This document shows positions 7,805 to 34,411 of a stretch of 56,122 nucleotides of DNA, one piece after another. Position 1 is the first letter of the stretch. Each line of letters begins with the position of its first letter. The position numbers were made by a program, and so were the translations under genes. The DNA comes from Rouxiella silvae. GTDB taxonomy: Bacteria; Pseudomonadota; Gammaproteobacteria; Enterobacterales; Enterobacteriaceae. The stretch lies in assembly GCF_002093625.1 (NCBI RefSeq), contig NZ_MRWD01000036.1, forward strand, positions 1 to 56,122, in the 5' to 3' direction. A model generated the notes under the pieces. It worked only from the letters and a program-made list of their open reading frames with translations. It was not told where the DNA came from and did not search any database.

Positions 7805-7837
7805 AAAAAAAAACCCTCGGAAGAAATCTTCCGAGGG
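7805..7837 (-). terminator. his operon attenuator terminator
   Basis: On the minus strand a stem (arms 7828-7837 and 7814-7823, 10 bp, tetraloop) is followed by nine Ts. It lies between the His-rich leader peptide and hisG, exactly where the classical his attenuator sits. Ribosome stalling at the leader His codons would favour the alternative antiterminator. Confidence 0.93.
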
Positions 7838-7903
7838 CTCTCTGCTGCATTCTGCGCCACTGGAAGATCTTAAAAGTCTCCCAGCACCAATCTGCCTGAA
7901 AGA

Positions 7904-7951
7904 CTAGTCAGGATGATGGTGATGATGGTGGTTGATCAGAATGTTTAGCAT
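7904..7951 (-). CDS. hisL: his operon leader peptide
   Basis: A 15-codon reading frame (MLNILIN, six His, PD, stop TAG). The six consecutive histidine codons (CAC CAT CAT CAC CAT CAT) sense charged tRNA-His. E. coli HisL has seven His in a row. A weak GAGA-type ribosome site lies upstream. It is followed by about 65 bases of pairing sequence and the attenuator hairpin, all on the minus strand ahead of hisG. Confidence 0.93.
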   Translation of the reverse strand: MLNILINHHHHHHPD

Positions 7952-30341: not shown

Positions 30342-30893
30342 TTAAGAGCGGGCTTCTAAAAATGCTGCGGTGTCCATTACGTGCGCTATCGGTCCATTCA
30401 GACAGGCATTGTGGTGAGCGATTATATCGGCAGCAGAAAGTTGGGGAGTGTTAATACAGCTGTGCGCATCGGCGATCAAAATGGGTTTAATGCCCAAAGC
30501 CAGCGCTGAACGACAGGCAGTGTCTACGCAGTATTGAGTTTTGAGCCCAACAATCACCGCTTGGTCAATCTGCTGTTGGTGCAGTAACTCGGCCAGAGAT
30601 GTACCGTCAAAGCAGCTGGCTCGGTTTTTATCAATAAAAGTATCGCGCTCGGCATCCCTATTTAACTCGGGAACTACATTCCAGACAGCTTCCCCGGCTG
30701 CATAAGGGGAACCTGGAGGACCCGCGTGGCGCACAAAAAACACTGGCCGATTGTGCTGATGAAAATGATCAATGAGCTGATTAATGTTGCTCAGCAGTGC
30801 TTCGCGGCCAAAGGGCAGTGGCTCCAGCGAACATTGACCGATTTGCATATCGATGACCAGCAATGCCTGATTTGACGAAGTATTTTCCTGCAT
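30342..30893 (-). CDS. Isochorismatase-family cysteine hydrolase
   Basis: A 183-residue cysteine hydrolase. The catalytic triad is in place: Asp15 in LLVIDMQ, Lys89 in FIDKNRASCF and Cys122 in GLKTQYCVDTACR. The family includes nicotinamidase, isochorismatase, biuret and carbamoyl hydrolases. EntB-type carrier domain is absent and the specific substrate is unknown. ATG 30893 has AAGGAG seven bases upstream. The gene is single, has its own terminator, and lies 36 bases behind a hairpin-plus-T9 terminator that follows a threonine-rich leader peptide, so it seems to be under transcription attenuation by threonyl-tRNA supply. Confidence 0.88.
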   Translation of the reverse strand: MQENTSSNQALLVIDMQIGQCSLEPLPFGREALLSNINQLIDHFHQHNRPVFFVRHAGPPGSPYAAGEAVWNVVPELNRDAERDTFIDKNRASCFDGTSLAELLHQQQIDQAVIVGLKTQYCVDTACRSALALGIKPILIADAHSCINTPQLSAADIIAHHNACLNGPIAHVMDTAAFLEARS

Positions 30894-30928
30894 GGTTTTC
30901 TCCTTGTTTAAGCCGGCCACGTCAGGAT

Positions 30929-30960
30929 AAAAAAAAAGCCCTGCCGTTTTCGGCGGGGCT
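30929..30960 (-). terminator. Putative attenuator terminator ahead of the hydrolase gene
   Basis: On the minus strand a 10-bp stem (AGCCCCGCCG with CGGCAGGGCT, one G-U) closes an AAAA loop and runs into eight to nine Ts. It sits between a Thr-rich leader and the hydrolase ribosome site, so it would block the gene unless antiterminated. The 5' arm CCCGCC (30957-30952) can instead pair with GGTGGG (31002-30997) in the leader reading frame. Confidence 0.82.
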
Positions 30961-30990
30961 TCAGTTGTCATTTACACAGCGCGCAACAAC

Positions 30991-31056
30991 CTACGACCCA
31001 CCAGTTAGGGGCGTTGTTGTCGTAGTGGTGAACTTATTAGCGCGATATGTTTTCAT
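30991..31056 (-). CDS. Putative threonine-rich leader peptide
   Basis: A 21-codon frame (MKTYRANKF, then six Thr, then PLTGGS, stop TAG) on the minus strand. Eight of 21 residues are Thr. The six consecutive codons are ACC ACT ACG ACA ACA ACG, so all four Thr codons occur, which argues against a simple DNA repeat. The last codons GGT GGG are the antiterminator arm. The upstream ribosome site is weak, and the best promoter would start the transcript almost at the ATG. Function is inferred from layout only. Confidence 0.65.
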   Translation of the reverse strand: MKTYRANKFTTTTTTPLTGGS

Positions 31057-31062
31057 TCTTTG

Positions 31063-31091
31063 AATATGTCACTGGCAGTTGGGTTCGTCAA
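31063..31091 (-). promoter_or_regulatory. Candidate promoter of the threonine leader
   Basis: On the minus strand a TTGACG box (31091-31086), a 17-base spacer and CATATT (31068-31063) resemble a sigma-70 promoter. Transcription would begin near 31056, giving a leaderless or very short 5' end for the leader peptide. Confidence 0.5.
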
Positions 31092-31099
31092 GTTCGTTA

Positions 31100-31140
31100 G
31101 CAAACTAATGTTAAGAAACATTTTCTTAACATTAGTTTGC
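31100..31140. repeat. Perfect 19-bp inverted repeat
   Basis: Left arm 31100-31118 and right arm 31122-31140 are perfectly complementary around a CAT loop. The arms are AT-rich (GCAAACTAATGTTAAGAAA and its complement). It lies 8 bases upstream of the -35 box of the leader promoter and before the rightward methyltransferase gene. There is no T-run. It could be an operator for a dimeric regulator or an mRNA structure. Confidence 0.85.
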
Positions 31141-34087: not shown

Positions 34088-34411
34088 CGGGTCTCTAGCC
34101 TTTAGGAACGTAGGGTTTTGCTGAGTCAAAAAGATTCATAATAATCAACTTGGTGAAGTCGCTATAAATCTAATACTGAACCCGGGGCCGTTGACCAAAA
34201 ATTGTGCTCTCTCTGTAGAGCAGGCAAGAAAAAACCCGGTAGTCTTGAACCTAATCAGGCGGGACTAACGGGCTCTCCAATATGGGGACTTCTAAAGTAA
34301 AGCAGTGGCAATAATTAAGACTGCTTGTACTAAAGAAAGTTCTTCACGGTTCAAAAAAAATACAATTCATTATTGATATTTCAAAACCACTAGCCTAGTC
34401 AATGGGTTACT
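34088..34411. other. Intergenic region downstream of ybjL
   Basis: A 324-base gap between convergent genes. It contains the putative ybjL terminator at 34229-34272; nothing else stands out. Confidence 0.5.
34229..34272 (-). terminator. Probable terminator of ybjL
   Basis: On the minus strand a 10-bp stem with one mismatch (arms 34263-34272 and 34235-34244) is followed by six Ts. It lies about 140 bases past the ybjL stop. Confidence 0.65.

Follow-up and report, generated by a model that had tools for sequence, protein, structure and literature searches.

In Rouxiella silvae, a gene for an isochorismatase-family hydrolase is preceded by a short open reading frame (ORF) with a run of threonine codons, and the locus raises the question of how such a leader could control the gene and why threonine would be sensed in front of this enzyme. 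The amino-acid attenuators otherwise known to us control the synthesis or the charging of their amino acid. The locus lies in an analysed stretch of 56,122 nucleotides, which is called the window here, and has the following features.

31063..31091, minus strand: promoter TTGACG (31091-31086), 17-nt spacer and CATATT (31068-31063), read from the sequence
30991..31056, minus strand: leader ORF of 21 codons, MKTYRANKFTTTTTTPLTGGS, from ATG 31056 to the stop TAG 30993-30991
31012..31029, minus strand: segment 1, six Thr codons ACC ACT ACG ACA ACA ACG, with four different synonyms
30997..31002, minus strand: segment 2, GGT GGG, the 5' strand of the antiterminator
30952..30958, minus strand: segment 3, CCCCGCC, common to the antiterminator (with segment 2) and the terminator (with segment 4)
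30935..30962, minus strand: terminator hairpin 3:4 with one C/A mismatch (z -4.68; own-partner advantage across loci)
30945-30939, minus strand: GGCAGGG, within the terminator hairpin
30929..30937, minus strand: U-tract of nine T, whose first bases also close the hairpin stem
30923..30927, minus strand: segment 5 (TCCTG), weak in this genome and the anti-Shine-Dalgarno strand in relatives
30900..30905, minus strand: segment 6, AAGGAG, the Shine-Dalgarno site of the hydrolase
30342..30893, minus strand: isochorismatase-family cysteine hydrolase of 183 amino acids, ATG 30893 (Pfam PF00857)

The promoter, the 21-codon frame, the Thr run, the terminator, the T run, the AAGGAG site and the hydrolase ATG had been described in a first-pass annotation of the letters, and all of them were recovered at the same positions. 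The terminator hairpin of the window has a folding energy of -18.4 kcal/mol, equalled by none of 200 shuffles, and the stretch from GGTGGG to CCCCGCC reaches -21.7 kcal/mol, equalled by 2 of 200. A simple terminator scan missed this hairpin, which has one internal mismatch. The hairpin of the window segment 5 with the Shine-Dalgarno site (5:6) is not significant, 180 of 200 shuffles being equally stable, and the promoter match in the window is by itself not above chance (one found versus a mean of 0.8 in shuffles).

Thr-rich leaders stand before the same hydrolase gene at 39 distinct loci, in Rouxiella, Ewingella, Winslowiella, Pantoea, Pseudomonas, Burkholderia, Paraburkholderia, Andreprevotia and further relatives, and the leader frame, its start and its stop are kept across loci of two bacterial classes. 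Thirty loci were taken from the family protein search (L006-L035); the 24 with the best scores are L006-L029, and an upstream ORF with 4 or more Thr in 8 codons is present in 23 of these, L017 being the exception. L031-L035 are without the leader, and L030 has a doubtful 4-Thr ORF at -300 that was scored as no leader. Further genome-contig and plasmid loci gave at least 5 Thr in 8 codons in 18 of 85 cases, two of which are duplicates; L036 and L037, which lie on the same contigs as L008 and L010, were dropped. Such frames are rare outside this setting: a count over 1.97 Mb of strand-bases gave 30 ORFs of 14-45 codons in which some stretch of 8 codons includes 6 or more Thr, and this leader accounts for 29 of the 30, one contig being counted twice. 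That background consists of the window and the fetched loci, with L001-L006 and L121 left out as repeats of the window or near relatives.

In a hydrolase tree of 76 rows, from which L050, L056, L095, L110 and L082-L115 were excluded, one clade of 41 (support 100/98) holds all leader rows, and its members without leader are L017, L040 and L117. The first-pass annotation had named homologous loci lacking the Thr run or the terminator as evidence against its reading; this comparison was run, and the leader is present in 38 of the 41 clade rows. The leader label requires 4 changes on the tree versus 25.8 in shuffles, and the simplest reading of its history would be one origin and three losses. Among the members of the hydrolase clade, the leader is present in 4 of 5 Pseudomonas loci and in 5 of 5 of Burkholderia and Paraburkholderia. 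The Thr-rich leader before this gene is not limited to the Enterobacterales, as it extends to Pseudomonas and the Burkholderiales.

Some single loci differ in other ways. L017 has small-ORF DNA upstream similar to that of L024 and L042, which are on neighbouring hydrolase branches, and keeps the hydrolase without a Thr leader, which makes it a natural no-leader control. The plasmid copy L056 has an intact leader and a hydrolase frame that is apparently broken right after the start. In L050 (Serratia marcescens 106R), the match begins at hydrolase residue 48, no leader was seen upstream, and the locus resembles a cut copy.

Thr codons are the conserved feature of the frame. The densest 8-codon stretches of the 39 loci contain 230 Thr codons, namely 140 ACC, 38 ACG, 35 ACA and 17 ACT, and at least two synonyms are used in 38 of the 39 leaders. 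As all four synonyms are in use, it is the amino acid that is kept and not a DNA word. Measured over the 39 loci, the first Thr codon lies 24-39 nt and the last one 6-18 nt before segment 2. Given the size of the ribosome footprint, the distance of the first Thr codon means that a stall at the early Thr codons would leave segment 2 free. In 24 loci the last Thr codon is 6-9 nt from segment 2, and a stall there would cover it in part.

The aligned loci are divided into six segments. Segment 1 is formed by the Thr codons, segment 2 is approximately GGYGG, segment 3 approximately CCCCGYC, segment 4 mostly GGACGGGG, segment 5 is TCTCCGTYC or a lineage variant, and segment 6 is the Shine-Dalgarno site. 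In a partner-swap test, segments were re-paired between species 5000 times, both for the full set of 39 loci and for 17 dissimilar representatives. The complementarity of 3:4, 4:5 and 5:6 is species-specific, as own partners beat 5000 of 5000 re-pairings in both sets, with the reservation that shared ancestry blurs all swap tests. Trimmed of its first bases, 4:5 still holds, with equally good re-pairings in 0 of 5000 (39 loci) and 2 of 5000 (representatives). The covariation of the 5:6 hairpin over the Shine-Dalgarno site is visible across the 39 loci and the 17 representatives and not in the window alone. Five of six non-partner combinations are without own-partner advantage, and one, segment 3 with the spacer between 4 and 6, leaned to own partners in the representatives (z -2.3, 72 of 5000). 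This pattern supports a predicted chain of segments, each able to pair with the next.

The first link of the antitermination switch behaves differently in this test, as 2:3 is conserved but does not covary (own partners -13.24 versus swapped -13.47). The pairing of GGTGGG with CCCGCC proposed in the first-pass annotation is kept across loci, approximately as GGYGG with CCCCGYC; it is obtained in folds that stop at the end of segment 3, and no compensatory changes are seen in it.

In RNA folded just to the end of segment 3, 2:3 has a mean probability of 0.86 versus 0.73 with a shuffled spacer, the former mean including L022 at 0.44, where segment 3 is misanchored. In the minimum-energy folds, the spacer between segments 2 and 3 makes an apical hairpin whose sequence varies. 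When the full-length RNA is at equilibrium, 3:4 for the most part beats 2:3 even with a stalled ribosome, and the exposure of the Shine-Dalgarno site is no different between stall (0.16) and stop (0.15), so the switch would have to be kinetic. When hairpins were frozen in the 39 loci, the mean exposure of the Shine-Dalgarno site was 0.33 with 2:3 and 0.14 with 3:4. Freezing 2:3 raised it by more than 0.2 in 15 of the 39 loci and lowered it that much in none; in the window it is 0.50 with either hairpin. The protector hairpin 1:2 has a mean probability of 0.68 (range 0.22-0.88, 39 loci), which is not above that of synonymous shuffles (p 0.38), and is slightly more stable than these shuffles (p 0.049).

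The loci differ in what follows the 3:4 hairpin. In the window and in L007, 8 of the first 9 bases after it are T and the 5:6 duplex is weak (-4.6). Twelve Enterobacter-type loci (L015, L018, L020-L023, L025-L029 and L119) have 0-4 T in these 9 nt, and their 5:6 duplex is strong (-13.6 to -14.9). A trade-off between U-tract and 5:6 strength is seen across the 39 loci, which are not independent (Spearman 0.62, p 3e-5), and is not clear in the 17 representatives (Spearman 0.36, p 0.15); L014 and L016 have both a U-tract and a strong 5:6. The window is read as a putative transcription attenuator. For the Enterobacter-type element, a mainly translational control is suggested, with less certainty than the reading of the window, because its U-tract is poor and a hairpin hides the ribosome-binding site of the hydrolase. 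The transcriptional output proposed by the first-pass annotation is kept for the window, and the output of the Enterobacter-type loci looks translational instead.

These data bear on a first alternative, according to which the attenuator is purely translational and 3:4 terminates transcription in no species. The twelve Enterobacter-type loci would fit it, as would the own-partner advantage of 5:6 and 4:5, but it leaves the T-rich sequence and weak 5:6 of the window and L007 unaccounted for and has the trade-off over the 39 loci against it, unclear as this is in the representatives and with both features present in L014 and L016. We regard it as improbable and keep the reading of a transcriptional output in the window beside a mainly translational one in the Enterobacter-type loci.

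The leader ORF has peculiarities at its own start. In the window, 6 nt separate the end of the -10 box from the leader ATG (31056), and no Shine-Dalgarno-like site precedes the ORF, a feature absent from the first-pass annotation. In 21 of the 39 loci, the distance from the end of the best promoter-like pair to the leader ATG is 6-8 nt and there is no Shine-Dalgarno-like site; the motif in these 21 is mostly TTGAC-17/18-CATNWT. Single promoter scores are modest, 5 of the 21 (L016, L039, L041, L047 and L048) exceeding the best of 100 shuffles, and the argument is made from the shared position and not from these scores. The other 18 loci, mainly Enterobacter- and Pantoea-type, have another spacing between -10 box and ATG. 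For this comparison, the leader start of L012 was set by hand to an ATG 12 nt upstream. Transcription in bacteria usually starts some 7 nt downstream of the -10 box, so a spacing of 6-8 nt would place the 5' end of the RNA on the AUG or beside it, and the leader in the 21 loci is probably leaderless. A leader-peptide RNA with its 5' end at its ATG is described for Sinorhizobium meliloti trpL in PMC7298713, a case that resembles the hydrolase leader in this start and differs in its Trp codons, its target trpE(G) and its host among the alphaproteobacteria.

Taken together, the anatomy of the window, the presence of the leader in nearly the whole hydrolase clade and the window hairpins 3:4 and 2:3, both far stabler than shuffles, uphold the attenuator proposed in the first-pass annotation, and the element is probably a ribosome-mediated attenuator controlled by its Thr codons, which would respond to charged tRNA-Thr. 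The RNA would start at or next to the leader AUG, where a ribosome would begin translation at once. With ample charged tRNA-Thr, this ribosome would reach the stop codon and cover segment 2 (or 1:2 would close behind it), 3:4 would form and transcription would end at the U-tract. With a stall in the Thr run, the free segment 2 would pair with segment 3 before segment 4 is made, and RNA polymerase would go on to transcribe the hydrolase. In those relatives whose U-tract is poor, 3:4 would free segment 5 to cover the Shine-Dalgarno site (5:6), which is the off state, and 2:3 would free segment 4, which would take up segment 5 (4:5), the on state.

Model R1 spans segments 3-6 (the 3' half), without any Thr codon, and was applied to 246 family genomes under stricter filters; as it has only 3 base pairs, it acts as a sequence profile. 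It gave 13 matches at E 1.8e-8 or better, all directly before the hydrolase and all of them loci from which the model was built, and the next-best match has E 9.2e-5. Within these filters, no other gene in the 246 genomes has a close copy of the element, and no Thr leader was found at the 17 loci examined among the weaker matches (L136-L152). Four of these weak matches, L137, L138, L140 and L143, lie before another gene and combine a C-rich/G-rich hairpin with a GGAGAAAC(A) start context; they have no Thr leader and are perhaps a different leader element.

Neighbouring genes are not constant. In 38 loci, where the ORF caller missed the hydrolase itself in 7, no family outside Rouxiella occurs in more than 4 loci, except one present in 8 at scattered places, which we take to resemble LysR regulators. 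Near L020 and L028 lie GNAT genes, and near L012 and L046 genes for binding proteins, each group confined to its own lineage; PADLOC gave no match.

The hydrolase matches Pfam PF00857 with 117.5 bits (cut-off 27), and D15, K89 and C122 are invariant across 24 aligned members; Asp, Lys and Cys are presumably the catalytic triad of the isochorismatase family. This invariance of Asp15, Lys89 and Cys122 makes an active enzyme probable. The nearest solved structure by profile is 2a67 (E 2.2e-40), of the same family and with the invariant Asp, Lys and Cys, which bears no more specific name than "isochorismatase family protein". The NCBIfam models all stay below their cut-offs for the hydrolase, the best scoring 53.7 bits versus 370. 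Its distribution is patchy, with matches in 35 of 392 family genomes (protein search, E 1e-20 or better) and none in the E. coli genomes searched. A class-wide search, which was thin, found it in 2 of 369 genomes, the window's own and that of L122, which is without leader.

A gene that would be switched on by stalls at Thr codons, has a patchy distribution, lacks constant neighbours and carries its own switch suggests that the hydrolase may relieve a problem of Thr charging. Obafluorin and borrelidin target threonyl-tRNA synthetase (ThrRS), the beta-lactone of obafluorin is hydrolysable, and obafluorin producers carry a second ThrRS, as stated in PMC10619133. It is possible, as a hypothesis, that the hydrolase detoxifies a ThrRS inhibitor, and it is likewise possible that its action on an amide sets free threonine or a related compound. 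A more specific version sees in the locus a mobile, self-contained detoxification unit, with a leaderless Thr sensor and a hydrolase that destroys a natural ThrRS inhibitor, induced by uncharged tRNA-Thr and with an output that shifts between transcription and translation by lineage; we hold it as tentative and rather unlikely in this complete form. A second, resistant ThrRS was looked for in 44 genomes (23 with the leader gene and 21 outside the hydrolase matches of the 392-genome search), and each has a single ThrRS match, which gives no support to a second enzyme in hydrolase-bearing genomes.

In a second alternative, the signal read by the leader is not the charging of tRNA-Thr but a drug at the peptidyl transferase centre, on which the enzyme, being of amidohydrolase type, could act. 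It is raised because phenicol stalling is favoured by certain residues, Thr being one of them: according to PMC8987054, chloramphenicol and linezolid stall best with penultimate Ala and less with Ser or Thr. Many leaders have Ala after the Thr run, for example TTTTTTASGG, and a gene that is found in 35 of 392 genomes and whose neighbour families outside the genus each occur in at most 8 of 38 loci looks like a detoxification gene. Thr is, however, among the weaker of the favoured residues, and an evolved sensor should prefer Ala, which in the densest 8-codon stretches accounts for 10 of 312 positions, versus 230 for Thr; a literature search for isochorismatase with chloramphenicol gave, judged by title, only cyanuric acid catabolism. 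There is thus little chance that the leader is such a drug sensor, and tRNA-Thr charging is kept as the predicted signal. A third reading, in which the Thr codons are a by-product of RNA pairing between ACC repeats and GGY repeats in an ORF not read as a sensor, is less probable still. The mean 1:2 probability of 0.68 in the 39 loci and the predominance of ACC would agree with it, but 90 of the 230 Thr codons are other synonyms, loci of two bacterial classes preserve the frame with its start and stop, and the pairing probability is independent of the actual synonyms.

Among known systems, the closest is the thrL leader of thrABC, which has a Thr-rich peptide, an antiterminator competing with a terminator, and a U-tract, and whose run mixes Thr with Ile. 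The hydrolase leader shares the Thr-rich peptide, the antiterminator and terminator and the U-tract, but it has hardly any Ile, its target is not Thr synthesis, it is probably leaderless and in many relatives it has a hairpin that hides the Shine-Dalgarno site. Against Rfam RF00506 (Thr_leader), the window scores 23.5 bits and L004 23.7 bits, below the 55-bit gathering cut-off, while a canonical Thr_leader is present elsewhere in the same genome (116.4 bits). The trp, his, phe, leu, ilv and pheST attenuators sense codon runs through alternative hairpins and act on genes for the biosynthesis of the amino acid they sense or for its synthetase; the hydrolase leader shares the sensing and the hairpins, whereas its target is neither a synthesis nor a synthetase gene. 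The cat and erm leaders are translational attenuators with hairpins that hide the Shine-Dalgarno site. Sequestration of this site is described for ileS T-boxes of Actinobacteria in PMC1262725. In cat and erm leaders and in ileS T-boxes, the leader or the tRNA state sets the exposure of the ribosome-binding site, as proposed for the hydrolase leader, which differs in that it would couple this exposure through segments 4 and 5 to a terminator-like hairpin.

Among the open-licence papers that matched, most of them judged by title and the opening of the abstract, no apparent description of such a leader before the isochorismatase family was found; PMC2704369, in the parts concerned, mentions thrL and an isochorismatase hydrolase in separate places. 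The element appears to work like a leader-peptide attenuator, and new are its target, its probable leaderless start and its apparent split output. An attenuator before an accessory hydrolase in two proteobacterial classes suggests a substrate tied to threonine or to the charging of its tRNA, and the link offers a testable route to this substrate. The aligned loci are also a natural series along which one conserved leader seemingly shifts from one mode of output to the other, transcriptional or translational, and many leaders of this series are apparently read from a 5'-terminal AUG.

Further elements are present in the window. Between the leader promoter and a divergent methyltransferase gene, a perfect 19-bp inverted repeat with a 3-nt loop lies at 31100-31140; by eye it is kept only in part in L007 and L008, and it is possibly an operator or a bidirectional terminator. 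A His_leader is found at 7805-7928 on the minus strand (106.4 bits), and the small RNA RybB at 34226-34306, also on the minus strand (78.8 bits).
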